DNA of 59,326 nt, from the NCBI RefSeq assembly GCF_026151205.1, contig NW_026971789.1, positions 1-59,326 of the forward strand. The letters run 5' to 3'. Shown here piece after piece: positions 7,346 to 42,758 of this stretch (positions are counted from its first letter, which is position 1; each line of letters starts with the position of its first letter). Position numbers and translations under genes: made by a program. Under the pieces are notes generated by a model. It did no database searches. It saw nothing but the letters and a program-made list of their open reading frames with translations, and was not told where the DNA came from. The DNA comes from Bolinopsis microptera (Eukaryota > Ctenophora > Tentaculata > Lobata > Bolinopsidae).

Positions 7346-7530
7346 GATGTGGATTGTATCCACCAGCGTGAGCTTTTTCTTACAGATATTAGTTTTTACT
7401 TTAGTTTCTTCAAGATATCCGTTTTTACTGGTAATCTTGTTTTGCTCTTATGAGTGGGTCAATCATTTATTTTTAATTGTAGTTGACGAAATGAGAGTCT
7501 CCACTCAGTGTGTTAAAACATAATTCTTTG

Positions 7531-7570
7531 TCGACGTTTCGGCTACATGCCTTTGTCATAAACAGGACGT
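7531..7570 (-). ncRNA. Hammerhead-ribozyme-like motif (left copy)
   Basis: Mirror image of the motif at 12522-12561. Minus-strand reading gives ATGACAAAGGCATGTAGCCGAAAC-type sequence followed by GTCGAC: a GGC/GCC stem II closed by a short loop, then the conserved GAAAC. The usual CTGATGA box is degenerate. Penelope-like elements are known to carry minimal hammerhead motifs. Activity is doubtful. Confidence 0.4.
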
Positions 7571-7828
7571 ACTGAAAACTTACATAGCTGCAAAGATACA
7601 ATGTTAAAATAATCTATTAATACTACGAAATATAACAACAACAAATAACATTTTGAAACACAACAACAATCACAAATTTTTCCAAAAGAAACATAAAATA
7701 AAACGGCTAAAAGAATCCAAATCGCAACAAGCCGTGAACGATTCTTCATACTACTACAAACATTTTATCAAGATAGCTCCTTCATAAAACTGATTAATCA
7801 AAAATTATCTAGGTTTATAAGTTCAATA

Positions 7829-9943
7829 TTACATTAACTTCCAAGTATATTTTATCCAATCACCTTCATTTACGGACTCAGACAATTGAGTATTTATTTC
7901 TGGGTTTTCACGTTTTATTAGAACCGACTGCCACAATTGACGGTCCACATAGTCTTTACATCTTTTTCGAACTATAAACCGAAACGGTATGTTTGGCATT
8001 GAAATGTCTGCATGCTCCTCTAGGTAGTGCTTCCCCATGGCCGTAGATTTGTTGCCATCCCTTACTGATTTGTAGTGTTCCCAGGCTCTACTTCTTTTAA
8101 ACCTACCAGTTTCCCCAATGTAGGACTTATTACATATTTGGCATATTAATTGGTAGCAAATGTTTTTGATCATGCAGGATTTATCGCACTGGTAGCATTT
8201 GCTGTCACTTTGTTTATTGCATTTTGTTTGCTGTAGGCTAGATCTTGTTAAAGCTTCCATGAGACGTTGTCCTGATGTGAATGTTACCCTGGTGGAATCC
8301 AAGAGGTTTTGATTTCTTAGGGTATAGTAGACTTTTCGACACGTCTGTTCATTTATATAAGGTAATGATAAGTAAGCTATTTTTGAGTTCTTTTTAGGCG
8401 CATTTTGTTTATCCAGTGTATTCTGTGTTTCTCGAATAAGTTTCTTGACAATATTAGGAGGGAAACTATTCTTCTTTAGCATATCAGCTATTCTGTTGAT
8501 ACTGAGATCTTGTAGTTCAGGTGTGGAGCTGTTATTGATAGCCCTTCTGATCTCATTTTTGGCTGAGTTCAGAATCGTTCTACGAGGGTGAGCAGAGGCA
8601 TAATTTAGGAATATGTCCTGGCTGGTTGGTTTAACAAATAAGGAAAAATCTAACCTCTTGTCCACCGTATTCATATAGATGTTCAGGTCCAAAAATGTAA
8701 CACAATTTTTGGAGCACTCATATGTGAACTGTATATCCCTGTTCAACGAGTTAATGTAGTTAAACAGCAATAGTACTGTGTCTTCATCTCCCTCGATTAT
8801 GCTGAAGCAGTCATCTACATATCTATCCCACATATCTATGATTGGGAGTCCTACTGGTTTGGGGGGAGCTTCTGGTATGTAGGAATAGTCGTTCTCCATC
8901 AGAGGCAATTCGATTGTACAGTAAACATAGATTATTGCAAATGGTGGAGCTGGTTTCACACCCATGCCGAGTCCATTTAGTTGTTGGTAGAACTTTGAAT
9001 CAAATCTGAAGTATCCTGCCTGTATGACTGATTTGAGGACCAAGTCAAAGTCCCCGAGGTCCATTCCATTTGTATCGATTTTATCCCTGTTGTTTTTTAT
9101 GAACTTTATGATAACTTTGTGTCCTTCTACAAGTGGGACATTTGTGTAGAGGCTTTTCACATCAGCCGTGAACATTATGTGGTTTGTGTTTATTCTTCCC
9201 ATCCAATGATCTTCTAATTTTTGCCGAAATTGAGGAGTGTTCTTAGTGTTAACGGGAACCAAGTCTAGTGCTTGGTTAAGTATATTGGTAACAAAATGAC
9301 CTAGTCTTTCCGCTGGTGAATCTACTTGGGATGTGACAGGTCGCAAGGGTGGCGGTGAAATATCTTTGTGTGTTTTCCATGTACAATAAAACTCTGGTAT
9401 ACGAGGAAGATATGGATTACAATGTTCTCCGATCCAAGGATATTTTTGTGTAAGTGAAATTATCAAGCCATCTATATCTGTGTTCATGCGAGGAAGAGGA
9501 TTTTTGGGCAGTTGTTTGTATGTACGAGTATCAGATAGCATTTCCTCTACCTTCTTAATGTAGAAAGTTTTATCTGAGATCACGAACTGTTTATCTTTAT
9601 CAGCTACTTTGATTACAATGTCGTCCCTAGCTCTCAGCTCTTTAACTATCTTCTGTTGTTGGTCAATAGTTTTCAGAGTGGTGTGGTGTTGTTTCTTTCC
9701 TAGGGCCTTGTCATAATCCAATATAACTGCGGCTTTCACTGCCTGGAGAACGTGTTCTTTGGCTGGGTTATTAATTTGTTGAGGCTGAAATTTGAAATCT
9801 TCTGGTTTTCTTAGAAAAAGCGGCTTGTTAGCCTGATCCACTTCTGTAACATTATCTAAGTACCTAGATCCATACGCATAGCGTTCTAATCCAACTTCAA
9901 CTTCCTTCAGCATCTCAGCTTTCTCTTGTTTTCTAGTGGGCAT
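7829..9943 (-). CDS. Penelope-like RT/GIY-YIG protein (left copy)
   Basis: Same 704-residue protein as the plus-strand copy at 10148-12262, read in the opposite direction. The start is placed at the first ATG (MPTRKQEK); the frame stays open another 34 codons to the palindrome centre without an ATG. The true N-terminus is therefore probably missing. Domains: RT with YVDD near residue 374, a cysteine-rich linker (CYQC, CYQLICQIC), then GIY-YIG nuclease around residue 606 (SYIGETGR). The protein would nick target DNA and reverse-transcribe its own RNA. The frame is intact, so it could be a recently active copy. Confidence 0.9.
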   Translation of the reverse strand: MPTRKQEKAEMLKEVEVGLERYAYGSRYLDNVTEVDQANKPLFLRKPEDFKFQPQQINNPAKEHVLQAVKAAVILDYDKALGKKQHHTTLKTIDQQQKIVKELRARDDIVIKVADKDKQFVISDKTFYIKKVEEMLSDTRTYKQLPKNPLPRMNTDIDGLIISLTQKYPWIGEHCNPYLPRIPEFYCTWKTHKDISPPPLRPVTSQVDSPAERLGHFVTNILNQALDLVPVNTKNTPQFRQKLEDHWMGRINTNHIMFTADVKSLYTNVPLVEGHKVIIKFIKNNRDKIDTNGMDLGDFDLVLKSVIQAGYFRFDSKFYQQLNGLGMGVKPAPPFAIIYVYCTIELPLMENDYSYIPEAPPKPVGLPIIDMWDRYVDDCFSIIEGDEDTVLLLFNYINSLNRDIQFTYECSKNCVTFLDLNIYMNTVDKRLDFSLFVKPTSQDIFLNYASAHPRRTILNSAKNEIRRAINNSSTPELQDLSINRIADMLKKNSFPPNIVKKLIRETQNTLDKQNAPKKNSKIAYLSLPYINEQTCRKVYYTLRNQNLLDSTRVTFTSGQRLMEALTRSSLQQTKCNKQSDSKCYQCDKSCMIKNICYQLICQICNKSYIGETGRFKRSRAWEHYKSVRDGNKSTAMGKHYLEEHADISMPNIPFRFIVRKRCKDYVDRQLWQSVLIKRENPEINTQLSESVNEGDWIKYTWKLM

Positions 9944-10147
9944 GTTTGGTAGGGCGAATTTTGGACCTCTATCTAAGAGCTCTAATGTGCCATCCGGTAG
10001 GTCGGGTGTTCCAATTACTGTGACTCTTGGTGTGGACTTAGGTACCAACCTAAGTCCACACCAAGAGTCACAGTAATTGGAACACCCGACCTACCGGATG
10101 GCACATTAGAGCTCTTAGATAGAGGTCCAAAATTCGCCCTACCAAAC

Positions 10148-12262
10148 ATGCCCACTAGAAAACAAGAGAAAGCTGAGATGCTGAAGGAAGTTGAAGTTGG
10201 ATTAGAACGCTATGCGTATGGATCTAGGTACTTAGATAATGTTACAGAAGTGGATCAGGCTAACAAGCCGCTTTTTCTAAGAAAACCAGAAGATTTCAAA
10301 TTTCAGCCTCAACAAATTAATAACCCAGCCAAAGAACACGTTCTCCAGGCAGTGAAAGCCGCAGTTATATTGGATTATGACAAGGCCCTAGGAAAGAAAC
10401 AACACCACACCACTCTGAAAACTATTGACCAACAACAGAAGATAGTTAAAGAGCTGAGAGCTAGGGACGACATTGTAATCAAAGTAGCTGATAAAGATAA
10501 ACAGTTCGTGATCTCAGATAAAACTTTCTACATTAAGAAGGTAGAGGAAATGCTATCTGATACTCGTACATACAAACAACTGCCCAAAAATCCTCTTCCT
10601 CGCATGAACACAGATATAGATGGCTTGATAATTTCACTTACACAAAAATATCCTTGGATCGGAGAACATTGTAATCCATATCTTCCTCGTATACCAGAGT
10701 TTTATTGTACATGGAAAACACACAAAGATATTTCACCGCCACCCTTGCGACCTGTCACATCCCAAGTAGATTCACCAGCGGAAAGACTAGGTCATTTTGT
10801 TACCAATATACTTAACCAAGCACTAGACTTGGTTCCCGTTAACACTAAGAACACTCCTCAATTTCGGCAAAAATTAGAAGATCATTGGATGGGAAGAATA
10901 AACACAAACCACATAATGTTCACGGCTGATGTGAAAAGCCTCTACACAAATGTCCCACTTGTAGAAGGACACAAAGTTATCATAAAGTTCATAAAAAACA
11001 ACAGGGATAAAATCGATACAAATGGAATGGACCTCGGGGACTTTGACTTGGTCCTCAAATCAGTCATACAGGCAGGATACTTCAGATTTGATTCAAAGTT
11101 CTACCAACAACTAAATGGACTCGGCATGGGTGTGAAACCAGCTCCACCATTTGCAATAATCTATGTTTACTGTACAATCGAATTGCCTCTGATGGAGAAC
11201 GACTATTCCTACATACCAGAAGCTCCCCCCAAACCAGTAGGACTCCCAATCATAGATATGTGGGATAGATATGTAGATGACTGCTTCAGCATAATCGAGG
11301 GAGATGAAGACACAGTACTATTGCTGTTTAACTACATTAACTCGTTGAACAGGGATATACAGTTCACATATGAGTGCTCCAAAAATTGTGTTACATTTTT
11401 GGACCTGAACATCTATATGAATACGGTGGACAAGAGGTTAGATTTTTCCTTATTTGTTAAACCAACCAGCCAGGACATATTCCTAAATTATGCCTCTGCT
11501 CACCCTCGTAGAACGATTCTGAACTCAGCCAAAAATGAGATCAGAAGGGCTATCAATAACAGCTCCACACCTGAACTACAAGATCTCAGTATCAACAGAA
11601 TAGCTGATATGCTAAAGAAGAATAGTTTCCCTCCTAATATTGTCAAGAAACTTATTCGAGAAACACAGAATACACTGGATAAACAAAATGCGCCTAAAAA
11701 GAACTCAAAAATAGCTTACTTATCATTACCTTATATAAATGAACAGACGTGTCGAAAAGTCTACTATACCCTAAGAAATCAAAACCTCTTGGATTCCACC
11801 AGGGTAACATTCACATCAGGACAACGTCTCATGGAAGCTTTAACAAGATCTAGCCTACAGCAAACAAAATGCAATAAACAAAGTGACAGCAAATGCTACC
11901 AGTGCGATAAATCCTGCATGATCAAAAACATTTGCTACCAATTAATATGCCAAATATGTAATAAGTCCTACATTGGGGAAACTGGTAGGTTTAAAAGAAG
12001 TAGAGCCTGGGAACACTACAAATCAGTAAGGGATGGCAACAAATCTACGGCCATGGGGAAGCACTACCTAGAGGAGCATGCAGACATTTCAATGCCAAAC
12101 ATACCGTTTCGGTTTATAGTTCGAAAAAGATGTAAAGACTATGTGGACCGTCAATTGTGGCAGTCGGTTCTAATAAAACGTGAAAACCCAGAAATAAATA
12201 CTCAATTGTCTGAGTCCGTAAATGAAGGTGATTGGATAAAATATACTTGGAAGTTAATGTAA
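10148..12262 (+). CDS. Penelope-like RT/GIY-YIG protein (right copy)
   Basis: 704 residues. RT motif A (FTADVKSLYTNVP, near residue 259), motif B (GLGMGVKPAPP, near 324), catalytic YVDD (near 374), and a following FLDLNIYMN block. C-terminal cysteine pairs and SYIGETGR (near 606) mark a GIY-YIG endonuclease, the domain order of the Penelope/Neptune/Poseidon type of Penelope-like element. The protein differs from LTR and LINE reverse transcriptases in lacking an integrase or APE domain. Upstream codons to the palindrome centre remain open, so the copy is probably 5'-truncated. A 68-codon hydrophobic frame (12342-12548) in the 3' region is of doubtful meaning. Confidence 0.92.
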   Translation: MPTRKQEKAEMLKEVEVGLERYAYGSRYLDNVTEVDQANKPLFLRKPEDFKFQPQQINNPAKEHVLQAVKAAVILDYDKALGKKQHHTTLKTIDQQQKIVKELRARDDIVIKVADKDKQFVISDKTFYIKKVEEMLSDTRTYKQLPKNPLPRMNTDIDGLIISLTQKYPWIGEHCNPYLPRIPEFYCTWKTHKDISPPPLRPVTSQVDSPAERLGHFVTNILNQALDLVPVNTKNTPQFRQKLEDHWMGRINTNHIMFTADVKSLYTNVPLVEGHKVIIKFIKNNRDKIDTNGMDLGDFDLVLKSVIQAGYFRFDSKFYQQLNGLGMGVKPAPPFAIIYVYCTIELPLMENDYSYIPEAPPKPVGLPIIDMWDRYVDDCFSIIEGDEDTVLLLFNYINSLNRDIQFTYECSKNCVTFLDLNIYMNTVDKRLDFSLFVKPTSQDIFLNYASAHPRRTILNSAKNEIRRAINNSSTPELQDLSINRIADMLKKNSFPPNIVKKLIRETQNTLDKQNAPKKNSKIAYLSLPYINEQTCRKVYYTLRNQNLLDSTRVTFTSGQRLMEALTRSSLQQTKCNKQSDSKCYQCDKSCMIKNICYQLICQICNKSYIGETGRFKRSRAWEHYKSVRDGNKSTAMGKHYLEEHADISMPNIPFRFIVRKRCKDYVDRQLWQSVLIKRENPEINTQLSESVNEGDWIKYTWKLM

Positions 12263-12521
12263 TATTGAACTTATAAACCTAGATAATTTTTGATTAATCA
12301 GTTTTATGAAGGAGCTATCTTGATAAAATGTTTGTAGTAGTATGAAGAATCGTTCACGGCTTGTTGCGATTTGGATTCTTTTAGCCGTTTTATTTTATGT
12401 TTCTTTTGGAAAAATTTGTGATTGTTGTTGTGTTTCAAAATGTTATTTGTTGTTGTTATATTTCGTAGTATTAATAGATTATTTTAACATTGTATCTTTG
12501 CAGCTATGTAAGTTTTCAGTA

Positions 12522-12561
12522 CGTCCTGTTTATGACAAAGGCATGTAGCCGAAACGTCGAC
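12522..12561 (+). ncRNA. Hammerhead-ribozyme-like motif (right copy)
   Basis: TTTATGACAAAGGCATGTAG followed by CCGAAACGTCGAC. The GGC/GCC stem, the GAAAC core box and GTC fit a minimal hammerhead such as those reported from Penelope-like elements. The CTGATGA box is replaced by TTTATGA, so this may be a decayed ribozyme. Confidence 0.4.
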
Positions 12562-12626
12562 AAAGAATTATGTTTTAACACACTGAGTGGAGACTCTCAT
12601 TTCGTCAACTACAATTAAAAATAAAT

Positions 12627-27203: not shown

Positions 27204-27494
27204 CGTACACTTACCGAAGCTGTCGATAAATTTATAAAATCAAAAAGTAGAAAGTACTGTCAAAAAGTATTGAATATTACAAAAAAACTTTCCTGAAATA
27301 TTTGAAATAAAAGAAAACACACTGGAAAAAGATGATGTTAAAAGAAGTCTTAAATTGCTGAAAAGTAAATACATTATTTGTAGTATCGACAAAGCTTCTG
27401 GTAATTTTGCATTTATTTGTAAAAAGTTTTATGTAAAAACTCTTATCAATGAAATGGGTTTTGATCCTAATATTCTAAAATGTATAGGTAATGA
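27204..27494 (+). pseudogene. RT piece 1 (N-terminal)
   Basis: VDKFIKSKSRKYCQKVLNITK, then a one-base frameshift in an A run near 27285, then FPEIFEIKENTLEKDDVKRS and the SIDKASGNFAFICKKFY motif to IGNE. Interrupted at TAATGA (27489-27494). Confidence 0.75.
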
Positions 27495-28580
27495 ATATAT
27501 TGTGTAAACGTAGCGCGCGAAACTTAAATATTGTATAACTCTATCATTTCATTACCCAGCGTGATTTACCGCGCCAGAATAATGATACGACGCCGCGCTA
27601 TATCCGTGAACCTACAGTGACTTATATTTTATATTTTGTATCTCTTACTACGTAACGCGAAATTAACAATTAAGTTGTATCACACTCCCGGTTTTGGACC
27701 CCAATGTTAACCTTGCAGCAACTGTGTCAGCCCAATATACTCTAGAAGTATGATCACACTTATTTTAATGAACAAAAGACCCATATATTATTAGTGCCGC
27801 GTGCTGATAAATATTCTGGGAATCAATCCACCCAATCGTGGTTTGACATACGTTGCATGCCACTTTTCGCGCGCGAAGCGCGCGCCGCCGAAGGCGATAA
27901 CATATTTTTGTGCGATAACATATTTTTGTGCTTGGCCGGTTTTAGGTTTGAGTTTGTGCTCCAAAAGTGGTAAATCGGGTGCTAGTAAAGCTCTTGCAGG
28001 CAACTGGCTCCTTTTGCCAACTGCTTTTGGTTTAAGCGCTGACTCACATTTGGAACTGGCACTGGTATAATTGTAATATCCTACGAAGTCAGCATGCTAT
28101 ATTATTTTGCAAAACTCGTTTAATATCTTGACAATATTTAAAGTTTATGGTTTTAGGTTTGGGCGCGGCGCACGCGCCGCTTACATGTTATAGCTCATTC
28201 AGCTTCTGTTTTCAGCGCTGTGTTGCTTCACACTGTATAGCATGTGGGTCAAGCGCGGTGCCGCGCCTAAACAGCAAAAGAGTTATTTATTTTAAAATTT
28301 ATTTTTGTATCTCAAAAATGATGTAAAGTTTTTAATATGACGTAGAATTAAAGCTATTTCCGTACAGCCTAAGTGCTAAGCATGCTCGTTAGAAAAACTA
28401 TGAACAATGAACATAACATGCTAGCTTTCTTTATTTTTGTAAGTCGCGTCGGCTGACATCTTGGGTTGTACTGGATGTAACAAGTTTATTATCGGATGTC
28501 TACTTATATTTATTGTGATATCATTATTCATTGTAATGGCAATAACATTTAAATTTTGTTTTACTTAATTTTGTTTTACT
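27495..28580. mobile_element. 1.09-kb insertion in the RT gene, class unknown
   Basis: Separates RT pieces 1 and 2. TAATGA occurs at both borders (27489-27494 and 28581-28586), a possible 6-bp TSD. The interior is non-coding with GCGC-rich patches (about 27520-27600, 27865-27890, 28160-28185). It ends with TTTTGTTTTACTTAA twice. No terminal inverted repeats seen. Confidence 0.5.
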
Positions 28581-28947
28581 TAATGATACATATAAACCCT
28601 GTAGCGAAGACGAGACTCATTATGTCAATAAAATATCTGAGAGTCTAAAGGAGAGATTTAATGTACAAGTTGAAGATAAAAACTTGCGACTAGCGCGCAT
28701 CTTCTGGAACCCTAAGCTCCATCAGAACCCTTACAAGTCGAGGTTCATTGCAGGTGCCCGTTTTTGGGTAACAAAACAACTGAACGTACAAGTTAACTGT
28801 TGTCTGAAACTTTTGAGGAAATACTTCAAAAAATACTGCGAGGCAATCTACAACAACAGCGGTATAAACATGTTTTGGAGCATAGATTCCTCAAGTGAAT
28901 TCCTTGAAGCTATCAAAAATAGCGATGTTTATAATATACAAGTATAT
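28581..28947 (+). pseudogene. RT piece 2
   Basis: Open frame from DTYKPCSEDETHYVNK through IFWNPKLHQNPYKSRFIAGA and SGINMFWSIDSSSEFL to YNIQVY. The frame is then taken over by a different protein at 28948, which gives a hybrid 282-codon frame. Confidence 0.85.
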
Positions 28948-29530
28948 ATAGGAAAAGAGGCTTTTATTGAGGAAAAAGTTCAAGAATGGTGTCGTGATCT
29001 TAAACAGTTAAGTGATATAGCATCAAGAGAACCTCAAATAGCATACAGTGCATACATGTATGGGCTTAGTAAAAGATGGAACTATGTGTGCAGAACTACC
29101 CCAGGAGTTGCAGATAGGCTCACTCCTCTAGAACAAGTAACACGTGATGAGTTTATCCCAGCTATCATTAACAGGCTGTTTAGCTGCACTGATGAACTAA
29201 GGAACATAGTGGCTCTACCACCAAGATATGGAGGATTGGGTATACCAGTTATGATGGAAATGGCAGACCGAGAGTACAATTTCTCATGTAGAGCCACAAA
29301 ACCCCTTAAAGAAGCTATTCTCAAGCAGATAGGCAACTACACAGAGGACTGGAGACATAGTAAAGGAGTGAAAACTGAGATAACGACAGAACGAAATCTC
29401 ATTTATCGACAAAAACAAGCAGAAATACGCCAGGAGCTCGAGTCAACACCACTGGCAAAGTTGATGTTCCAACTAGCGGCTGAGAAAGGGGCAAGTGCTT
29501 GGTTAACAGCACTACCTTTAAAAGAGATAT
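28948..29530 (+). pseudogene. C-terminal fragment of an unnamed RT-associated protein
   Basis: About 195 codons: IGKEAFIEEKVQEWCRDLKQ, then SAYMYGLSKRWNYVCRT, LPPRYGGLGIP and GASAWLTALPLKE. I recognise this pattern as the region downstream of RT in a mobile element common in invertebrate genomes, but I cannot name the clade. Both ends are missing: the 5' end at the TSD and the 3' end where the LINE begins. Confidence 0.6.
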
Positions 29531-31997
29531 AACAATGAAGCTCTTTGGAATGATACAGACTGTTACAGGAATTACTAGAGTTGCAAACTTAGATGGTAGG
29601 ATAACGCAGAGCACAATAGATGTTGTCATGACTAACTGTTACTCTAATTTCATAGAGTGTAAAGTACTTGATGATAGAATAGGAGATCACCAAGCTCTCA
29701 AATGTGTTCTCGACTTTAAAGTAAGTAAAGCTAGTAAATTCCAGAAGGTTCTTATCAGAGACCACTCCTTAAACAATCTAAAAGCCTTAAGCTATTCTCT
29801 GGGATCCTGCAGTAACTACAGTAATATTCTAAGCTGTACTAATGTAGACCATGCCCTAGATGGACTTAATCATCACATCCAGGAATCGTATGATAATTAC
29901 TGTCCACCTAAACAGATTAAGTGTAATAGTAACTTTCTTTGTAATCCCTCTAAAGTACTGTTGGCAGAAATACGGAAGAAGAAGATGCTTTTCAGAAAGT
30001 ATAAAAAGTGTTTAGGACAATTTAACAAATTCAAGTGTAAGTGTATTAATGGAATATGTAAATGCAGAAAAAGTGAACTACATAAGAAATGCTCTACTTC
30101 ATGGGATAACTATCGTCCCCAAAGAAACTATGTGACAAAATTATCCAAAGAAAACAGACGTACAAATATTGTTCAGGACCTTACTGTGAAAAGTGCAAAA
30201 AACGATTTGAAAGGTATTTGGAAAACTATCAAACATGCTTCAAACTTACCTGGAAAAATAAGTAGCTCTTCCCCAAGCAACTTAAATGTTAATGGAGTTA
30301 ACCTGCATTTTGCCACAGTTGGTACAATAATACAAGAATCAATTAAGGAAAAGGATTCAGACGACTTCCTAGAATATATGCCGCCTCCAACAGAGTGTAA
30401 ACTCTCTGTATTCGAAGAGGTGACTGTTGAACAAGTAAAAGAATATATACTCAGTATACCATCAGATAAATCGATTAACGATATCATGCCCATCAAAGTA
30501 TATAAGTATATTATTCCCCAAATCATCGATCCAGTAGCTCATATTATAAACCTTAGTATGAAAAGTGGAACAATGCCGTTGGCATGTAAAATTGCATCAG
30601 TCACTCCAATTCTTAAAACTGGTGACCCTAATGATCCAAATAACTACCGGCCAATATCCATACTCCCCCTAATTGGAAAATGCATAGAATATTTTGTTAA
30701 CCAACAGCTTACAGAGTATGTTGAAACAAATAAACTGCTTACCAACCATCAGTATGGATTTAGAAAAGATCATTCCACCACTTTTCTAATGCTTAATCTA
30801 TTTGATAAAATATTTACGTCTAAGGAGTCACAGAAGAAACCTGCAATTGTATTCTTAGATATTAAAAAGGCCTTTGACACAGTAAGCCATAATATTTTAT
30901 TAAAAAAACTTAAGTATTATGGAGTTGATGGCTTTGTCATAAAGTGGTTCAAAAGCTACCTTGGGGACAGAAAGCAGCACACCAAAATACGTGGTAATGT
31001 AAGCACATCACTCCCTGTTAAAACAGGTGTGCCACAGGGTAGCATATTAGGACCAATTCTATTTAGTTTATTCATAAATGATCTCAGTAGAAATTGCACA
31101 CAATCTACTGTTTACTTATTTGCAGATGACAGCGCACTATATTTTGATAACATTTCCCGAGGCATATATGAGAATGTAATTAAGGATATGAAAATTGTGT
31201 ATGAATGGCTTAGAATCAACAAGCTGAGACTAAATGCTGCAAAATCTTCATTCATTGTATTTGATAGATCACCTAATCTGGACACGTTGTCAATCCCTCT
31301 GGATTTGGAAAAAGATTGCATATTTATAGAAGAAACTAAATCTCAAAAATATTTAGGTCTCATGATAGACAATTTATTGAACTTTCAAGACCATATTGAT
31401 TATGTGAAATCAAAAATTGCTAAAAGAATAGGGGCATTATACAGGTCGAAAAATCTTCTTCCACTGAAATATAGAAAAATGTTTGTAAATGCTCTTATGC
31501 TCCCCCAATTTGACTACCTGGATATAATATGGTGTAGGGCTGCCAAAACCAAACTCAATTCTCTTGATATATTATACAAGAAAGTAGCAAAAATTGCTCT
31601 GGATGTTCATTGGCAGGAACCATCAGTAAATGTATATCGAAACATGAAGTGGTTACCCTTACACTTAAGAAGACAACTCCATCTATCAACGTATATGTAT
31701 AAAATTCTTAATGAGGCTGCACCATCATCATTCACAGATAAATTTTCTTATGTATCCGGAGGATCACGTGATGCTGAGAGGTGCAACCTTTATATTCACA
31801 AATCCAGAACACACAAAACCTTTACATATTTAGGTGCAAAATGTTGGAATACAATTCCAGAGAACATAAGGACTATAGAATGTAGTGTAAAATTCTCACA
31901 ATGTATGAAATCTAAATTTATGTCAGATGTAATTCAAGGAGTCTCATCCTATGAAATAAACAATAGTTTCGACTATTTCTACACTCTAGCTATGTGA
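29499..31997 (+). CDS. L2/CR1-like LINE ORF2, 5'-truncated
   Basis: 832 codons, uninterrupted. The first codons (to about 29530) belong to the neighbouring fragment. The LINE part opens in the last quarter of an APE endonuclease (TIDVVMTN, RIGDHQAL), then NYRPISILPLIGKCIE, YGFRKDHST, FLDIKKAFDT, GVPQGSILGPILF, catalytic FADD near residue 540, and the C-terminal block FSYVSGGSRDAERCN. No RNase H, which fits the L2/CR1 group. It would nick and reverse-transcribe at the target if complete. It lacks most of the nuclease, so it cannot be autonomous. Confidence 0.88.
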   Translation: MVNSTTFKRDITMKLFGMIQTVTGITRVANLDGRITQSTIDVVMTNCYSNFIECKVLDDRIGDHQALKCVLDFKVSKASKFQKVLIRDHSLNNLKALSYSLGSCSNYSNILSCTNVDHALDGLNHHIQESYDNYCPPKQIKCNSNFLCNPSKVLLAEIRKKKMLFRKYKKCLGQFNKFKCKCINGICKCRKSELHKKCSTSWDNYRPQRNYVTKLSKENRRTNIVQDLTVKSAKNDLKGIWKTIKHASNLPGKISSSSPSNLNVNGVNLHFATVGTIIQESIKEKDSDDFLEYMPPPTECKLSVFEEVTVEQVKEYILSIPSDKSINDIMPIKVYKYIIPQIIDPVAHIINLSMKSGTMPLACKIASVTPILKTGDPNDPNNYRPISILPLIGKCIEYFVNQQLTEYVETNKLLTNHQYGFRKDHSTTFLMLNLFDKIFTSKESQKKPAIVFLDIKKAFDTVSHNILLKKLKYYGVDGFVIKWFKSYLGDRKQHTKIRGNVSTSLPVKTGVPQGSILGPILFSLFINDLSRNCTQSTVYLFADDSALYFDNISRGIYENVIKDMKIVYEWLRINKLRLNAAKSSFIVFDRSPNLDTLSIPLDLEKDCIFIEETKSQKYLGLMIDNLLNFQDHIDYVKSKIAKRIGALYRSKNLLPLKYRKMFVNALMLPQFDYLDIIWCRAAKTKLNSLDILYKKVAKIALDVHWQEPSVNVYRNMKWLPLHLRRQLHLSTYMYKILNEAAPSSFTDKFSYVSGGSRDAERCNLYIHKSRTHKTFTYLGAKCWNTIPENIRTIECSVKFSQCMKSKFMSDVIQGVSSYEINNSFDYFYTLAM

Positions 31998-32450
31998 CAA
32001 CTGAAACAAATTTTATGGTGCTGGAGTTTTTGTCTGGTGGAAAGGCCCCCTGCGTTATATGACCTATTTCTAGAAGTATAGAACTTTAAACATCTCCTTT
32101 ATTCGTTCCCATTTGTTATCATTGCCAATCTATTATTGTTCTATACTTCTTTGTGTATAACTGTAAATAACATTACTAACGTAATTCCTAAGTGGGCATC
32201 TATGTAATCTTAATTGTTACCTTCATGCCCACAGTTCACTGTTAAATCATATCTTATTTTATCACTCATTAATTTATTACTCATAATTATGTTTTACAAA
32301 CTATATCCTTATGTCCCTAGAAGGGTGTTCTGCTAACAGTTTTCGACTGACTTGAATGTCCTGCACAGCAGATTGAAGCTTCTTAAATTATTTTTTATTC
32401 TTATTGTATTGCTGTGTAAATTTGATTCTAATTCTAATTCTAATTCTAAT
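31998..32450 (+). other. 3' end of LINE with (TTCTAA)n tail
   Basis: Non-coding 3' region ending GATTCTAATTCTAATTCTAA at about 32423-32450. Short tandem-repeat tails instead of poly-A are normal for L2/CR1-like LINEs. Confidence 0.8.
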
Positions 32451-33063
32451 ATTTAGGTGCAAAATGTTGGAATACAATTCCAGAGAACGTAAGGACTATA
32501 GAATGTAGTGTAAAATTCTCACAATGTATGAAATCTAAATTTATGTCAGATGTAATTCAAGGAGTCTCATCCTATGCAATAAACAATAGTTTCGACTATT
32601 TCTACACTCTAGCTATGTGACAACTGAAACAAATTTTATGGTGCTGAGCTGGAGTTTTTGTCTGGTGGAAAGGCCCCCTGCGTTATATGACCTATTTCTA
32701 GAAGTATAGAACTTTAAACATCTCCTTTATTCGTTCCCATTTGTTATCATTGCCAATCTATTATTGTTCTATACTTCTTTGTGTATAACTGTAAATAACA
32801 TTACTAACGTAATTCCAAAGTGGGCATCTATGTAATCTTAATTGTTACCTTCATGCCCACAGTTCACTGTTAAATCATATCTTATTTTATCACTCATTAT
32901 TTATTACTCATTATGTTTTACAAACTATATCCTTATGTCCCTAGAAGGGTGTTCTGCTAACAGTTTTCGACTGACTTGAATGTCCTGCACAGCAGATTGA
33001 AGCTTCTTAAATTATTTTTTATTCTTATTGTATTGCTGTGTAAATTTGATTCTAATTCTAATA
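32448..33063 (+). mobile_element. Second, 5'-truncated copy of the same LINE 3' end
   Basis: Repeats 31826-32450 at an offset of about 622, with few changes (including a 6-bp insertion near 32647). It begins exactly at the tail of the previous copy and ends with its own GATTCTAATTCTAAT. It therefore looks like a new insertion into the tail of the older copy. Confidence 0.88.
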
Positions 33064-33114
33064 TAGGGTCATTGCTATTATATTATGTGTATATTGTTTG
33101 AATATTTTATTATC

Positions 33115-33170
33115 ATAATATACAAGTATATGATTTTACTACTCTTTATACCATATTAGACTTGATTGAC
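33115..33170 (+). pseudogene. RT piece 3 (motif A)
   Basis: Second TSD copy followed by codons YDFTTLYTILDLID: the RT motif A region between two insertions. The frame is continuous with pieces 2 and 4. Confidence 0.85.
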
Positions 33171-34787
33171 AACGAGACCAGCTTGAATAGCTTTACTGAA
33201 ATAACTGAGTCCAATATCTTAGACTATGTGGCAAGTATCCCTTGTAGCAAATCCACTAATGATCATATACCATTGAGAGTGTTTAGACAAATTTTACCTG
33301 CATTTATTGCTCCATTAACACATCTTGTAAATTTGAGTTTATCCAGTGGCATCATGCCAAACAGCTGCAAGGTTGCAAAAGTCACCCCAATCCATAAGGA
33401 TGGTGATACTGAGAATCCTAGTAATTATCGACCAATCTCAATTTTACCGATTCTTGGAAAGTGCATCGAATTTTGTGTGAACTCCCAACTGACTCAATAT
33501 CTTGATGAAAAAGGAATACTTTCAGAGCATCAATATGGTTTCCGTAAAGATCACTCTACAACTTATCTCATGTTGGATCTGTTTGATCGTATATTTACTG
33601 CTAAGAACAGTGCCAAGCATCCTGCAATTATCTTCCTGGACATCAGAAAGGCATTTGATACTGTTAACCATGATATTCTCATTCAAAAGTTGAAGCATTA
33701 TGGAATAAAAGATACTGCATTGAGCTGGTTTAGGAGCTTCCTCACAGATAGATTACAGCAAACTAGAGTTGGGAGTAGGATAAGCAGTTTACATTCATTG
33801 AACTCTGGAGTGCCTCAAGGAAGTATATTAGGACCAATTCTATTCAGCATTTTTATCAATGACCTGCCTAATGCATGCCTATTTACTAAACCTTATCTAT
33901 TTGCTGATGACGGTGCATTATATTTTGACAATATATCTAGAGGAAACTATGGTAACATCAAACAAGAGTTGAAATTAGTTATCAGATGGCTTCAGGCTAA
34001 TAAACTATCCCTGAATAATGAAAAAACAAAACTAATGATCCTTGACTCTAAGCCTAACCTTGATGCCATCCTTGTTGAAATTTGTGATGACCTTACTTTG
34101 GTAATCTGTGAAACTAAATCCCATAAGTACCTTGGACTTATAGTTGACAGCAGATTGACATTTAATGAACATATTGATAACATTAAGAAAAAGATATCCA
34201 AAAGAATTGGTGCTATGTATAGATCAAAAAAACTTCTCCCTCTTAAGTTCAGGAAGATGTTTGCTAATGCACTTATGTTGCCACATTTTGACTACTTAGA
34301 CACCATCTGGTCAAGAACATATAAAAAACGACTAGGAGAGTTAGATATCATGTACAAAAAGGTTGCTAAAATAGCCCTAGATGTAAACATCAGAGAGAGG
34401 TCGGTTAATGTATACAAAAATATGGGATGGCTTCCTCTCCATTTGAGACGACAGGTTCATCTTAGCTCATATATGTACCGTATAATCAATGAAACATGTC
34501 CAAAGCATTTTATCGGGAAATTCTCGTATATTTCTGGTGGATCACGTGAGGCAGAAAACTGCAATCTTTATACTCCTAAATCAAGATCTCACAAGGAGTT
34601 TAACTATCTAGGAACTAAGGCCTGGAACATATTACCAAAGTCCCTTAGAGAGTGTGACGACGTTAAGAAATTTTCTAAGTTATACAAAGAAACTCTTATG
34701 AATATGTTGCTAACTGATGAGAATTACCAAGGGGATAACTCTTACGATAAATTCATGATCCCACCCAACACTAGCCAATGTATCTAG
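33162..34787 (+). CDS. L2/CR1-like LINE ORF2 (second), 5'-truncated
   Basis: 541 codons, uninterrupted; the first three codons are from the host RT gene. Motifs: NYRPISILPILGKCIEF, YGFRKDHSTT, FLDIRKAFDT, GVPQGSILGPILF, FADD near residue 246, FSYISGGSREAENCN. Clearly homologous along its length to the frame ending at 31997. Endonuclease and RT N-terminus are absent. Confidence 0.9.
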   Translation: MIDNETSLNSFTEITESNILDYVASIPCSKSTNDHIPLRVFRQILPAFIAPLTHLVNLSLSSGIMPNSCKVAKVTPIHKDGDTENPSNYRPISILPILGKCIEFCVNSQLTQYLDEKGILSEHQYGFRKDHSTTYLMLDLFDRIFTAKNSAKHPAIIFLDIRKAFDTVNHDILIQKLKHYGIKDTALSWFRSFLTDRLQQTRVGSRISSLHSLNSGVPQGSILGPILFSIFINDLPNACLFTKPYLFADDGALYFDNISRGNYGNIKQELKLVIRWLQANKLSLNNEKTKLMILDSKPNLDAILVEICDDLTLVICETKSHKYLGLIVDSRLTFNEHIDNIKKKISKRIGAMYRSKKLLPLKFRKMFANALMLPHFDYLDTIWSRTYKKRLGELDIMYKKVAKIALDVNIRERSVNVYKNMGWLPLHLRRQVHLSSYMYRIINETCPKHFIGKFSYISGGSREAENCNLYTPKSRSHKEFNYLGTKAWNILPKSLRECDDVKKFSKLYKETLMNMLLTDENYQGDNSYDKFMIPPNTSQCI

Positions 34788-35406
34788 GCAGTTATGTTAT
34801 TTCGGTTAAGTTATCTCAGTACATAAGTGAATCCAATCTATCCCCTGCAATCAAAGTATTTCCATGCCTATTAAGCTATTACAGGAAATTAGGAACATCA
34901 GTGGAAAGGTGCACTGTCAATCATTATTGCTCCATACCTCCAGTCCTCCTGTTATGTGCAATTCTCACTGTATGCTCCTCATTTGTATCAATTATATTGA
35001 TGCTACATTGTTATTGAATATGAAATAATTTTCAACCGTATTAATTTATTAACTTATTGTAAATAGCAAGTTTGACAAAGGGATTACGTTTATTTTACCC
35101 GGAGTTCGTTTAAGTTTAGTATTGTAAATAGTTAATTTGACGAAGGGAATACGTCTATTTTACCCTGAGTTATGTTTTAGTTCAATCTTGACACAATTTT
35201 AAAATTATAATTTAATTATTTTATATATATGTATTGTCCATAACTAGGGTGGCCTGCTAACAGAACCATGATCTGCCTTGATTCATCCTTCAGCACAGAG
35301 AAAAGCTCCTTTTTTATACATTATGATTACAGAGGATCTGATATTTAGATATATATTGCTGTGCTGTAAAAATTGACTTTATTTATTTATTTATTTATTT
35401 ATTTAT
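33171..35406 (+). mobile_element. Second L2/CR1-like LINE, 5'-truncated, (ATTT)n tail
   Basis: Inserted after TTGAC (33166-33170), which recurs at 35407-35411. The 3' end is an ATTT repeat (about 35377-35406). The two sides join in frame (LDLID then VENMINEVV). Related to the LINE at 29530 but with a different 3' region and tail, so a separate subfamily. Confidence 0.82.
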
Positions 35407-35703
35407 TTGACGTAGAGAATATGATTAATGAAGTTGTTGATTTAATATTTTCAGACCGTAATAGATATATTTGTATTTCTAAAAGAGACAGTAATACATG
35501 TTTCTTTTCCAATAAAACATATGATTCTTATGCCTGCTTTAGTCAAGATGACCTAAAAGAGGCTGTTAAATTTATTATTTATAACACTTATGTTGTCTTT
35601 GGTGGGATTGTATTCATACAAACCAAGGGTATTCCTATGGGTGGAAATTCAAGTTCCCCTATAGCTGATCTCACTGTTGGCAAAAAGGAATTTAATTATA
35701 TGA
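35407..35703 (+). pseudogene. RT piece 4 (motif B)
   Basis: DVENMINEVVDLIFSDRNRY through NKTYDSYACFSQDDLKEAVK to TKGIPMGGNSSSPIADL and KKEFNYM. Broken at AATTATATGA (35694-35703). Confidence 0.85.
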
Positions 35704-36200
35704 TTATTATTATTATTAAATCTAAAATAGCTAATAATTTAATAAATTATTAACAGGCCCCTTAACGTGGGCAATAATATACGCTTTATAAATTATATAA
35801 ACAAATTGAAGTCTATTTTCCAATGTTGTTAAGTGTCTCTTTAGATCTGTTTTGGTCTTTCGTGGGAGTTCCCACATTTGTTGGTTGAGAATGCTCAACA
35901 TAACATACATGATGCTTGACTGCTTTATTGACCCGGACAGGCACCGGGGGCAGACATCCCAACACCAGTGCGTTGGGACATAGTGTTGGTCTGCTTTAGG
36001 ACGTGTTAGATCCTAGAGAAGCCGCCATCCCCTCTACTGCTTTAGCTCAGCGGCAGCATGAGCCCTGGTTTCCTGCCACATTGGTACCTCTGAAAGTACA
36101 GAAAAGTGGTGGATTTCGGGGTCCAGGATACTCCCTCTTTGTTCTTTATGGTGGTAATATTTCTCTGAGATGTTTGCAGAGTCTTAATTTCATGATCTTT

Positions 36201-39126
36201 CTAGTCGGATAAATCCTGGAGAGCATCATTTTGTCCCCAAAGAAATTCGACTCTCCTAATGAATGCTTTTTGTGTGCTGCTTTTTGTTAACACTTCATCT
36301 AGATAGGAATGTGAGTCTGCCCCACCCAGCTCTTCTTTCAGTTGCAGGTAACTGGTGTCTTGCACCTCCAGACACAATAGGAGCTGGTGTACGGGGGAAT
36401 CAATGAAGCTGTTACAGAAACGACAGGCCTCACCACTGCCACCATCCATGATCTTTTGGATGAGGGACAGCGTGACAGTTTTATCCTTCAGGGACAGCGG
36501 AAGCTATGCCAAAATTTTCAGCCGATCCCTTTCATGTGCAAGTTTAACCATCCACAGTTTCTATTACTGATTTTGAGACACCTCCGGGGACTTAATCATG
36601 CATGGTTCTTGAGTCAAAGTATAGCAAATTGCCGGAAGAGAGTTAATATATATGTAATTTCAATTATTTATGATACCGATACAAGCATTCAAATTCCAGA
36701 CATTTTCAACCAGAATAGTGAGCTGAAACAGGCTTTCTGAGAGTCTTTTGATGTCTTAGCTCAATATCATACCGAATGGCTCTCATGAGGAATAAGGTCA
36801 GTTGGCTGCTTGCATATCTGGCCATTATTTCTCGGGACGATCATGTCATAATGATTCTGCTCTGTTGCTTTGACGTCAGTGGCAGACATATTGTCCCACA
36901 GGTCGCTGTGAAGTCCTTATGTGCACAGCCAGTACAGAAAGGACGATACTTAAGGATCCGCGAGGGCTTGAAGGCTTATCCAGATAGCCCATTATTCGCA
37001 CCTATCTCCGTGGATTCCCTTAGAAGGGAGGCTGAACGGTGAACCTCTACCAGTAAAATTTGAGGTCCAACTCCGGAGGAGAAACTCGGTTACGGATTAA
37101 AGCCGTCCGGGACTAAACAGTAACAGTAACAGATCTTTTGGATGTTCGCAAAGAGTGGTGAGCTGCCGTGAATGTAGTCCATTATTCGGCTGTCCAGATT
37201 TTTACTCGTGTTGTGCCCGAATAAAAAGTTGTTTTTGTCTAGGAGCAGCCCACTGTTTTTGATCTTTGTGATCACACCGAGTATCTTGGTCTCCTTGTTG
37301 TTACTGACAGTTCTGCATTGCAGATTTGTTTCGATGCTGTCAATCCAGATCTTATTTTTGTAGCTCATTATGTCTGCCTGAGTGTAATAGGCTAGATCCT
37401 TGAAATGTTGCTGCGTTAGGTCTATCATTCTGGTTCCGTGTGACTTATTTTCTTTCCAGAGGAAGTACTTTTTCAGTGACATTGTTAGGACATGAAAACT
37501 TGGTATTCTGCTTTCATCAACTTGGTAGAGGGTAGCTGAAAGATTGTCACCTTGTGTGAGTAATTTGCACATGAATTTAACCGAGAGAGCTTCGAGTTGC
37601 ACATCCAGTGGTGGTAGGTGGAGAGCAAGTTCGGTTAATTCCCTTTGTGGGTTCAGGACTGATCCAGATATTTTTAGAATTATTTTATTCCAGAAGCTTT
37701 TAAATTGATTGAGACACTTGTGAAGCCAAATAGGTGCTGCGTAGAACAGTTTAGTGAGGACCATTGTCTTAAGGAGGAGAGTGAGGCTGTAAACGTTTAG
37801 ACCATAGTTGCGGTTAGTTGATTTTGTTATTAATCCCCACTTTCTTTTGCATTCTTTAAGTTTTTGAGACGCATGTTTCTTGAAATTGAGGTCCTCATCT
37901 ACTATTACCCCAAGGACCTTCGTACTTTTGACGTAGTTGATGCTTTTCCCATTAATACATAATTCTGCAGGTTTCTGTTCTTCATTATAGGCTGCAGTTT
38001 TCAAGATTATTGCCTCTGTTTTATTTGTATCACAGTTCACTACTAGCTTGTTCTTGATGCACCACTTGCTAAGGTGGTCACATACCATCTGCATTTTTTC
38101 ATGGCATTCGGAGATGTTCTCAAAGGAAATCATAAGTGTACCATCATCAGCAAATTTGTAGCAGCTTAGATATCTTTTTACCTCTTCCGGGGTGTTGTGC
38201 GTCATGTCTGCTATGTATAGGATAAAGAGGAGAGGTGAGAGTACAGCCCCCTGAGGTAGTCCAAATATTGTGCATTTTCTTTTTTCTCCTTTATAGTTGT
38301 TCACTTTTAGACATATCGTCCGGTTGAACAGGAAACTTCTCAGCACGTTAAGAATATTTCCTTGAATACCGAGAGTTGATAGTTTGACACATAGTGATGG
38401 AAGATGAACACTGTCAAATGCCTTTTCGAAGTCAAGGAAAAGCACCAGCTTCTGTCGTTTAACTTCCTCAAGGTTAGCCAGCATTCTGAAAAGATATCGC
38501 GTTGTTGATCTCCCTCCAATAAAACCTTCCTGATCTTCATCAAGAGTTCCTTCGATGTCCAGGAAGAGTCTCAATCTTTTATCTAGCACTCTTTCACAAA
38601 TCTTTCCAAAGTAGGATGATATGGAAATCGGTCTATAAGCACCAGGTAACATGTAGCTGGATTTTCCTTCTTTCCTCAAGAATGTTACATCGGAAGATTT
38701 CCACAGCCATTTTCCTGTGCTCATACACCAGTTAAATATGATCTGCAAGACGTGAAGACAATTTGTTTTTATGTGTTTGAGGATGGTGGGGTGAATATTG
38801 TCTGCATCACATGATTTGTCATTTGTTTCTTGCCTTTCTATAGCTGATTTTATCTCGTCTATGGAAATATGGTTGTTCAGCGGATCATCTTCACTGTAAC
38901 TACTTGCAGATTTGCTGCTAACATTCTTTAATTTACTGAACTCATTATTTACATGCATTTCGTGCTCTTGGTCATTGGGTTGGTTTTGAAGGTGTTTTCC
39001 TGTGAAGAAAGTATTAAATAACAGCTCTTCCTTATCTTTTTCAGATGTGACCAGCAAGTCACAGTCTTTGAGGTTGCAGATGAAGTTGTCAGTTTTGGCC
39101 CCAAAAACTCGTTTATATTTTCTCAT
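36201..39126 (-). pseudogene. LINE ORF2 split by a nested insertion
   Basis: First part 39126 to 37132: RT with GAYRPISISSYFGK, FLDFEKAFDS, GLPQGAVLSPLLF, FADD near residue 325. The last 13 codons before the apparent stop at 37090 come from the inserted element. The true C-terminus resumes at 36462 and ends at 36201, with a CRFC...HQLLLC cysteine-histidine motif. Removing 36463-37131 plus one TSD copy restores a continuous frame. No endonuclease and no RNase H seen; clade uncertain (CR1/Jockey/I-like). Confidence 0.85.
36463..37131 (+). mobile_element. 669-bp nested retroelement fragment (13-bp TSD)
   Basis: Flanked by GATCTTTTGGATG at 36450-36462 and 37132-37144. It ends AACAGTAACAGTAACA, a short-repeat 3' tail, so it is plus-oriented and probably the 3' untranslated end of a LINE or a SINE. 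No convincing coding frame. This is the third level of nesting: RT gene, minus-strand LINE, this element. Confidence 0.85.
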
Positions 39127-39668
39127 AATTATATGAAACGTTTACTTCAGGAAAAGAAAATGGGATTAGCAAAGATATTATCCAATAATAAACGATATGT
39201 TGACGATTTATCTATTATTAACTACCTTTACTTTCATAAATTGATTAAAGATATTTATCCTAATTCATTGGAGATGGAGCGAGCTGGTTCCAATAATAAA
39301 ATCATTAACTACCTTGATTTAAATATTAATATTTCCACAGAAGGACTAGAAATATCAGTGTATAACAAAACTGATGATTTTAATTTTCATGTTGTATCCC
39401 TTACATTTCCTCACTACACAGTAACATCCCAACCGAGGTTGGCTACAACGTTTTTTCAAGTCAAGTTCTTAGATACGGTAATGTTTGCACTAGATTGGAT
39501 ATCTTTACGGTCTGCCATCTTCACAAGATATTCAAAATTCTAATTGATAGAGGATATAGCCGTGATAGACTGGTTAAAGGTATTAAACGTTGTCTGAGGA
39601 AATATAATAACGTTTTCAGGAAGTTCGGTATTCTAGATGACCATAACATTATTAAAGAACTCCCCTGA
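39127..39668 (+). pseudogene. RT piece 5 (motif C and C-terminus)
   Basis: NYMKRLLQEKKMGLAKI, catalytic RYVDDLSIIN, NYLDLNINISTEG, YNKTDDFNFHV. One frameshift near 39410, after which the other frame continues IPTEVGYNVFSSQVLRYGN and DRGYSRDRLVKGIKRCLRK to a stop at 39666-39668. The C-terminal pattern matches this RT group. Confidence 0.85.
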
Positions 39669-40678
39669 TATCTTTTGATTTTATTGAAACACGGGTACTA
39701 ACTCTGCTAAACTGAAAAAATTCTGAAACTTAGGTGAATAAGTGTACAACGTGCTAAACCGAAGTTCAGACTGACCAGTGAAAATAAAACAAAAGTTAAT
39801 AAAACAAAAGTTAAATTTATTACCAATTATTCAATCAATACATATCATAAATTCTAATATTGGAAACACAATGCAGAATGGATGTCTTAAACTATAATTT
39901 TGTCACTAATAATCTATTTACTTTCAAAGTTGAAATTTAGTTAAGTATGAAATGCCACCACATCATAGTTAGGGTAAAATATTATTCTTAAAAATTTTAA
40001 AATTAAGAAGATTGCTCTATGACTTGAAATTTAAAATTTAGCAAAAGATATCTAATTTTTAAATAGTTGGTTACAGTTTATGACAGTACTGGCATGACCA
40101 ATTTTATTGTGGCTGGTAAAAGGACCCAGTTGCCTGTAAGGGCTTTACCGAACCCCTGGGGACCACAATGTGATAGGATCAGGCCAGATGTTTCTATGTA
40201 GAGCAATTTATTTATTTCGGAGCTATGCTTACGTGGTATAGCTGGTGGTCATGTTTAAAGGTCAGTTTATCCTTGTGTGCTAATTATCCATCCAGATGCT
40301 TAGTGATGTGAGTAAATCATGCCCTTCTACGATATATAACGTTTAACTATAAATGGGCGTACCAAGTGTCATTTTAATTAGATGTTTTAGTCAGTGATTT
40401 ATTATTGTAGCTTGTAATTACAATAACTTATGCTCCTGTAAATACTTTAATTAATTTTTTGTTCCGTTATTCTTTTTCCTTCCTCTTTTCCTTGTCATCC
40501 CCTTTAGTTTTAAGATTCTTGCTATAAATGGCTACAGCTAACACCATTAATGCTAAGTACCAAACAACAAGTGGGAGGTGGATCGTTGGTATACCGTTAA
40601 ATCGATTTAACACCGCAATTCCAGTCGCAAGCCTGGGACCACTGCTAGCATTATCACAACATCTACAAAGCTGCCATA
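39669..40678. other. AT-rich non-coding DNA
   Basis: No gene or structured repeat recognised. A 67-codon frame from 40528 runs into the element at 40679 and is not credited. Confidence 0.5.
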
Positions 40679-42329
40679 CGGGTATATGGCCCCCAGAATA
40701 TAGGTGGCCCCCAAAATATAGGTCATGTTAGTGGATACAGTTCTAACCAAGATAAGCGATACTAATGGGATCTGTTACTGCTAGGTTGGAGTAAAACATG
40801 TAATTTATGTTTCTGGATAAAAATTTTGGACCTACATGAGGTATTTTGGTATATTTGGTCATGACAGCGAAAGATTTAAACGATGTTGTCATTTTCTAGA
40901 GGGGTAAATATGGCGAAAAATTGTCATGACAAAAATCTGTCCAACACATGCCATTAAGACTACTGGTATGAGTATAAGTATTATTTTAAGCTATCTTTTC
41001 ATCGAGACATCTGCAAACTGACAATTTGGAAAAAAGTTATGGCCACCACAATTTTACGGGCCCCCAGAATATAGGTCTATACGACCCCCAGAATATAGGT
41101 TGGTCAAAAACCCTGAACATGCCCAAAACCATGCTTTGGGATGCTCTACTTGTAGCTACTAGTCTCCTGAACCCACATATCAAGTTTTATCAAAATTGGA
41201 TAAAAATTGGCCGAGTTATGGGATAAAAACAAAAACCATATGCCCATATTTGGGCATACGCACCAAATTTGATCGATTTTGGTCCATAAATTGGCCAAAT
41301 ATCAATATTTTTGAATGAAACCAACTTTTTATGGAAGGTAAGCATATATTACACATTCTCTATGATTATCAGCTCAATATCTACCTAACTGTGGATTCTG
41401 TGTTCAAATAATCGCAAAAAATGAACAAAATCGCCCATATCTCAAACTGACTTCGCTCAAAACAATAGAACTCAATAGGGTTTCAATATTTTCACATGAA
41501 ATTTTCAGAATCAACGTAGAATTGTCTCATGACCTTAAGTTTTGGGACAGAATTTTGAGTTAGGCCTTTAAAAAAATTTGGCGGCCAAAAATGTCTGATT
41601 TACAGTCATTGAGGTGCACATTGTATTGATACAGATAAAAACAGCCCCCCTCAATCATATCTAGGGACACTCCTTCAATCTTATTTAAGTATTTAGTTAA
41701 GATCCCTACTAAATGAGTGCATGAAAGCTTTTTAACAAGTAAAATTAAAGATTTTACTCATTACGGGTATATGGCCCCCAGAATATAGGTTTAAAAAAAA
41801 AATAGCGACCAAGATTCTGCATTTTCTCTGTCACCCTGAGCATTAAGGAATGTGGGGTAGTGATGAGAAACAGTTAAAGAACATATGCTGAAGAGATGGC
41901 ATCATCAAAATGTATGAAGGTGGAGTATTTGAGGACGATTTTTGCATACCTATATTCTGGGGGCCGTAGTTTTTGATTTTTTGCTATTAAGTATACTCTA
42001 AACCATTTCAATTTAGTATCTGGAGCCATTGGCATCATCAATACAGTCTCAGCAACATATTCTGACTGCATATAACTGTCTGTGACAATTTTAGAACAAC
42101 TTAGGAACAGATGTTTGGACCTATATTCTGGGGGCCCTGTTAAAAAATGGTATTTTTACAGGTGAAAAAAAAGTACACTTAAAAACCTAATAATTATTTT
42201 CAACTACCCAAGAAACATTTAAAGGGTTATTATGTACATATTTACAGCCCTAAACATGCTTAGAAGTAGTTTTAACACCTGTTTCTAAGTGCTCAAAAAA
42301 CGACCTATATTCTGGGGGCCATATACCCG
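40679..42329. mobile_element. 1.65-kb TA-flanked element with iterated motif
   Basis: Perfect 27-bp terminal inverted repeats start CGGGTATATGGCCCCCAGAA (40679-40705 and 42303-42329), with TA on both sides. The motif CCCCCAGAATATAGGT from the terminal repeat recurs inside: near 40708 (one change), 41065, 41085 and 41775 on the plus strand, and near 41948 and 42119 on the minus strand. No transposase; non-autonomous. The TA duplication fits Tc1/mariner-type or other TA-targeting families. Confidence 0.85.
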
Positions 42330-42758
42330 TATAGCCTGACTGACAATTTTCTCGACTGACTGACAATGTTTCTTCTTTTCCCCATTTAGAATACAAAGAT
42401 TAGTACATTTTAGCTTATGATTAATATTATATTTTTACCTATAGTTTACCTAGACTTGTGGTGTCTTGTTTCACCCAGATTATAAGTTGTTGTTATTGTT
42501 TGCTGTCGCCTGTGAAGTGTGACACATTACATTCATGAGGCCCTGTGTGTAATGCAATCGGTAGTTTGGAGGGAGCTTGGGCCAGCCCCAAGTCCCCCTA
42601 CCCCCTCCCCTCCCTTACTGGGCGGCGCTCAGCCTGTCATTCCGCCGAATTTTTATTCGGAACATAATAGCCTGGGGTCCTCAGGTAACCCCTCCCCAGT
42701 CCGTCGATTGGACACCCAACAAAACTGCCAGCCACTTCCCACGGGCTGCCTCTGCTTA
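42330..42758. other. Non-coding DNA
   Basis: Nothing supported. A C-rich patch at about 42585-42615 lies here; overlapping short frames are not convincing. Confidence 0.45.

Follow-up and report, generated by a model that had tools for sequence, protein, structure and literature searches.

Penelope-like elements (PLEs) with permuted domains, a group known as Naiad and one named by its domain order in the title of a 2021 paper by Craig et al., are the elements that an interrupted retroelement on a small contig of the ctenophore Bolinopsis microptera most resembles in domain order. The window analysed is the whole of this contig (NW_026971789.1, 59,326 nucleotides; hereafter C30), and the locus (27208-42454) is very likely a 5'-truncated PLE copy hit by serial independent insertions and not a host gene, with the insertions found only on C30 being the younger ones. 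Passages of PMC11167929 and PMC3846280 describe tandem and partial-tandem PLE copies with pseudo-long terminal repeats (pseudo-LTRs) and 5' truncation, and place the endonuclease of canonical Penelope/Poseidon elements at the C-terminus. Hammerhead motifs are reported in PLEs. Twister ribozymes are reported in RTE-type or non-LTR elements in parts of PMC7761336 and, with a citation of Liu et al. 2021, of PMC11620745.

The PLE at this locus is recognised through an uninterrupted relative fetched from the same genome (loci so fetched carry L numbers), whose stretch L016:879-4909 (4031 bp) follows the window pieces in order and continues through every cut, in aligned blocks at 27208-27494, 28581-28947, 33115-33169, 35407-35703, 39126-39785, 40357-40678 and 42327-42454. 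Identity is 95.7-98.2% in all blocks but the first (82.6% as aligned, a value lowered by an internal ~51-bp deletion). The features are as follows, with C13 denoting another contig of the same assembly, TSD a target-site duplication, RT reverse transcriptase, ORF an open reading frame and LINE a long interspersed nuclear element.

27208..27494, plus strand: PLE piece 1, covering 1908-2247 of the element's 4031 positions, with 5' truncation at 27208 and the internal ~51-bp deletion
27495..28580, plus strand: insert 1, untyped dispersed-repeat copy; TSD TAATGA (27489-27494 / 28581-28586); in C13 with internal differences
28581..28947, plus strand: PLE piece 2
28948..33114, plus strand: insert 2, composite; 17-bp TSD ATAATATACAAGTATAT (28931-28947 / 33115-33131)
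29527..33062, plus strand: LINE (RVT_1) with partial tandem, inside insert 2; C30 only
33115..33170, plus strand: PLE piece 3, RT motif YDFTTLYT by eye
33171..35406, plus strand: insert 3, LINE (RVT_1) with (TTTA)n tail; TSD TTGAC (33166-33170 / 35407-35411); true empty site in C13
35407..35703, plus strand: PLE piece 4, GIPMGGN motif by eye
35704..39125, minus strand: insert 4, LINE (RVT_1) with TAA-rich tail; TSD TAATTATATGA (35693-35703 / 39126-39136); in C13
36463..37131, no strand assigned: inner insert of insert 4, 669 bp; 13-bp TSD GATCTTTTGGATG (36450-36462 / 37132-37144); in C13
39126..39785, plus strand: PLE piece 5, YVDDL by eye; ORF end at 39668; internal frameshift
39786..40350, plus strand: insert 5, untyped member of a dispersed ~571-bp repeat; 4-bp TSD AAAT; in C13
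40351..40678, plus strand: PLE 3' non-coding part
40679..42329, no strand assigned: insert 6, DNA transposon; terminal inverted repeats CGGGTATATGGCCCCC and TA duplication; absent from C13
42327..42454, plus strand: PLE 3' end

The overlaps at the four cuts within the ORF are target duplications of 6, 17, 5 and 11 bp, of which the left copy of TAATGA differs by one base in C13, and every insert has dispersed copies elsewhere in the genome. Each of the 40 relatives scored, taken best first from 127 candidates, runs without a break through the four ORF sites. These duplications and the uninterrupted paralogues show that the insertions into the PLE were later and independent. The reading frame is preserved at all four ORF junctions in a base-level alignment with L016, which any insertion flanked by a TSD would give and which is therefore no extra evidence. 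With its start at position 1908 of the 4031-bp element, the window copy lacks about 43% of the ORF from the 5' side, the GIY-YIG domain included, and piece 5 has a frameshift of its own, with ORFs 39022-39543 and 39384-39668 in different frames. On this reading a copy of a PLE family with an N-terminal GIY-YIG domain inserted here dead on arrival, and other mobile elements subsequently inserted into it, each independently.

The first-pass annotation of this stretch had proposed one RT gene cut into five pieces by four insertions. The single RT frame in five ordered, abutting pieces is borne out by the L016 alignment, and four cuts do lie in the ORF, but to speak of a cut gene overstates what is a truncated retroelement. 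The PLE also reaches 42454, beyond the span first described, with two further insertions (39786-40350 and 40679-42329) in its non-coding tail, and the composite and inner inserts had been missed. Frame had been claimed at three junctions, where it holds, and it holds at the fourth as well; of the duplications given as 17, 5 and 10 bp, the first two stand, the third is 11 bp, and the 6-bp TAATGA duplication is to be added. The inserts had been taken for several unrelated retroelements, but 40679-42329 is a DNA transposon, as its terminal inverted repeats and TA duplication indicate, and 27495-28580 and 39786-40350 are untyped repeats.

Insert 1 belongs to a repeat that is ~1.3 kb elsewhere (for example, C13:3488690-3489988). 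The outer part of insert 2 (28948-29526 and 33061-33114) is a truncated retroelement, of which 21 of the 41 listed matches besides C13 span nearly the whole length (40 of 984 candidates scored), and the upstream part of one relative, L077, reads TQGD and YADD motifs by eye. In C13 this outer part is ~1380 bp long and unbroken; on C30 it is split by a LINE copy (29527-32448) followed by a partial tandem of the LINE's own 3' end (32449-33062), accompanied by loss of 777 bp of the C13 target (C13:5888832-5889610). Copies of insert 6 are 98-100% identical (40 of 1543 candidates scored).

Some points weigh against interpreting the locus as an interrupted PLE with insertions of two ages. The PLE ORF has no match to Pfam RVT_1 or to any PDB chain, so the RT assignment rests on the motifs YDFTTLYT, GIPMGGN and YVDDL recognised by eye. 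The scored paralogues were taken best first, so that the sample leans towards intact copies. No TSD was recognised for the window PLE itself; for the family, 8 of 18 downstream stretches matched, and a 6-nucleotide string was common to two of the three loci with both flanks. Finally, the relative ages depend on C30 being a haplotype, and it could instead have arisen by recent segmental duplication from C13.

The assembly that holds C30 (264.65 Mb in 232 contigs) contains both sequences, a point in favour of a segmental duplication, and from window position 6559 to its end C30 is collinear with C13:5,860,923-5,913,931 in 33 blocks (36,305 aligned bases, 168 mismatches, ~99.5% identity in the aligned blocks). 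Blocks below 95% identity were dropped from this chain, and over ~1 kb of it (window 34325-35396) the C13 partner is another LINE copy. A segmental duplication is unlikely: C30 is an entire small contig with this identity and collinearity in the aligned blocks, and the first ~1.5 kb of window 51723-53545 matches just C30 and C13 (40 scored of 1627 candidates). C30 is therefore probably the second haplotype of the C13 region at 5,861-5,914 kb. C13 shares inserts 1, 4 (inner insert included) and 5 and the outer part of insert 2, and has its own ~4.9-kb insertion within insert 4; it is without inserts 3 and 6, where a single copy of each target is found, and without the LINE inside insert 2. These empty sites partly resolve the order of events, between a shared and a C30-only group, and relative dating is possible as the first-pass annotation had expected: the PLE and inserts 1, 2, 4 and 5 would have come first, with inserts 3 and 6 and the LINE pair that breaks insert 2 arriving later on C30, if C13 is the other haplotype. 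The pair of contigs yields unusually clean filled and empty sites for two inserts. Separately, window 1-1171 aligns with C13:5855001-5856173 in reverse orientation, near a long TCC-rich array (2267-4174), and an inversion between the two contigs is possible there.

That several element types prefer the same target was also part of the first-pass annotation, and the six insertions within ~2.1 kb of PLE sequence might suggest it. The cuts, however, are scattered over element positions 2247 to 3905 in target sequences that are unlike one another, the scored relatives (40 of 127, best first) are intact, and 2 of the 19 differences of at least 70 bp between C30 and C13 (counted by hand) fall inside the PLE's own ~2 kb, against ~1 expected (P=0.27 for 2.0 of 37 kb). 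A shared hot spot is very improbable, and the claim is unsupported. A single spliced gene, with the pieces as exons and the inserts as introns, can be dismissed with near certainty, despite the order and frame of the pieces, by the lack of any gap at these sites in all 40 scored relatives, the flanking direct repeat and dispersed-repeat content of every gap, and the complete absence of insert 3 from C13. The locus is a dead PLE copy with transposable elements nested in it, ordinary genome wear in kind; more worth following are a ribozyme-like motif in the PLE tail and the inverted dimers of a neighbouring PLE.

The family of the interrupted PLE was characterised from its longer copies. The ORF of L016 (924 amino acids from stop to stop, 913 from a TTG codon) has a single GIY-YIG match, near the N-terminus and upstream of the RT motifs (PF01541, residues 59-105, E=1.3e-5, 25.8 bits against a cutoff of 22.6), whereas canonical Penelope/Poseidon elements, in the passages cited above, have theirs at the C-terminus. 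In a second PLE family (L019) PF01541 scores 20.7 bits, below the cutoff, and a third (L020) has no PF01541 match. Full units of the first family occur head to tail in L015 with a period of ~3829 bp, L065 and L066 are partial tandems with a fixed 3' end, and L016 carries a 202-bp terminal repeat; such tandems and partial tandems with pseudo-LTRs, and 5' truncation, are common to this family and to the canonical elements as described there. The host element fits a PLE family with an N-terminal GIY-YIG domain, and its domain order would suit the permuted-domain type. With the permuted-domain elements of Craig et al. it shares a GIY-YIG domain before the RT in one ORF, tandem arrangement and many copies; it differs in that the window copy has no endonuclease and that the family has a twister-like motif and no hammerhead match.

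The motif lies in the 3' non-coding part of the PLE:

40570..40643, plus strand: twister-like ribozyme motif, comprising an Rfam RF02684 match (40577-40636, 28.7 bits) and an outer helix AGUGG/CCACU

With Twister-P5 (RF02684), the PLE tails of the window, L015 (twice), L016, L017 and L018 score 28.7-28.8 bits (E 0.003-0.02), and the flanking helix lies outside the match. A second model, made from four of this family's copies, detects the motif in L019 (27.1 bits, E=9e-5 in 163 kb; positions 2726-2810 and 6076-6160), the family of which has ~23% protein identity to window piece 2 over the stretch compared. The third family (L020) has no twister match by Rfam search or with the four-copy model. 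Six pairs of the motif have changes on both sides, which none of 500 shuffles reaches, in a test that amounts to one contrast between two families, with three of the seven distinct rows being truncated junctions. A search of the genome with the core pattern gives 338 matches, against none in a reversed control, and the 14 motif-bearing loci fetched comprise two with the L019-type motif and 12 tails of this PLE, which end at unit position 3827-3829 with variable 5' truncation (one, L074, is clipped by the fetched stretch); two of these tail loci show partial tandems.

The lineage may carry, in its repeated end region, a self-cleaving ribozyme of twister type that has replaced the hammerhead class in the same transcript-cutting role, a proposal for and against which the evidence is about evenly balanced. 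The replacement of one ribozyme class by another is proposed because this RNA is retained, with compensatory changes, in the L019 family. Transcripts of full-length relatives would carry the motif ~200 nucleotides before their 3' end, and it may cut those that are in tandem. No hammerhead motif matches at E<=1 in L015-L020, whereas hammerheads have been reported in other PLEs; the twisters described in the parts consulted of the non-LTR reports are alike in being twister-kind motifs in a retroelement, but lie in RTE-type or non-LTR elements, those of the RTE report at the element's 5' end, not near the 3' end of a PLE. The parts consulted of PMC11167929, PMC3846280, PMC7761336, PMC10085705, PMC7229834 and PMC11620745 hold no statement of a twister in a PLE, the subscription literature being mostly outside this scope. 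If the proposal is true, ribozyme class is swappable within a retroelement class, which can be tested at the bench.

Other results count against a ribozyme. The gathering score of RF02684 (37.6) is not reached, the window having no match at that score, and in folding energy the motif does not stand out from shuffles (z of -1.08 and -0.01, and -0.82 for L019). Helix P1 is uncertain, being skipped by the Rfam alignment, and its AUCG/CGAU pairing is not kept in the L019 family. Nor do the results support PLE 5' ends being set by cleavage at the motif, as none of the ends located falls at the predicted cut (~3121/3122). Of the stretches upstream of 18 copies with long ORFs, 10 match the reference, three of these continuing into an upstream tandem copy and seven having an end, at L015 positions 3128 and 3341-3387, and eight have no match to the reference stretch; the ends of L016, L017 and L018 are at 3116, 3261 and 3371.

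Small ribozyme-only repeats were considered and rejected, the paired motifs 350-369 bp apart being partial tandems of truncated PLEs. At ~849-900 of L016, the 5' PLE junction repeats ~15 nucleotides (CGATTTAACACCGCA) across its boundary, within the ribozyme-like stretch. After the ORF end of L020 (3492), complementary GGGGG/CCCCC and CTTGGCACA/TGTGCCAAG segments were noticed by eye that could form a pseudoknot; an Rfam search of L020 listed nothing at this stretch.

A second PLE neighbours the interrupted one on C30. The perfect palindrome at 7465-12626, with arms of 2.58 kb, is an insertion absent from C13 and flanked by a 13-bp direct repeat as TSD. Each arm has one open frame (753 amino acids from stop to stop) with RT and C-terminal YIG-like motifs by eye and no Pfam match, and the whole, at window 7428-12626, is an inverted dimer of a canonical-looking Penelope element. 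A survey with the arm gave 77 matches (40 of 312 candidates scored), both arms of the window's own palindrome among them, in which opposite-strand neighbours within 60 bp have their 3' ends outward in 24 of 24 pairs and inward in none; both 3' ends are complete in 18 of these. Among the 11 dimers of which the flanks were checked (10 of the 18 complete pairs and the window's own), nine are flanked by direct repeats of 13-18 bp (one in a microsatellite) and the other two by repeats of 5 and 8 bp, compared with at most 9 in 110 mismatched flank pairs. Judged from its genomic copies, the neighbouring family integrates as inverted dimers, which look like priming from both target strands. Passages of PMC11167929 report that a PLE in vitro cleaves and extends both strands, starting at two sites, with a start site that is not different between strands; the both-strand activity agrees with the dimer pattern. 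In 10 of the 11 dimers one outer end, and not the other, has a tail of ~35 bp, and in the remaining dimer both ends have it, an optional tail at one inverted pseudo-LTR having already been described in parts of PMC3846280.

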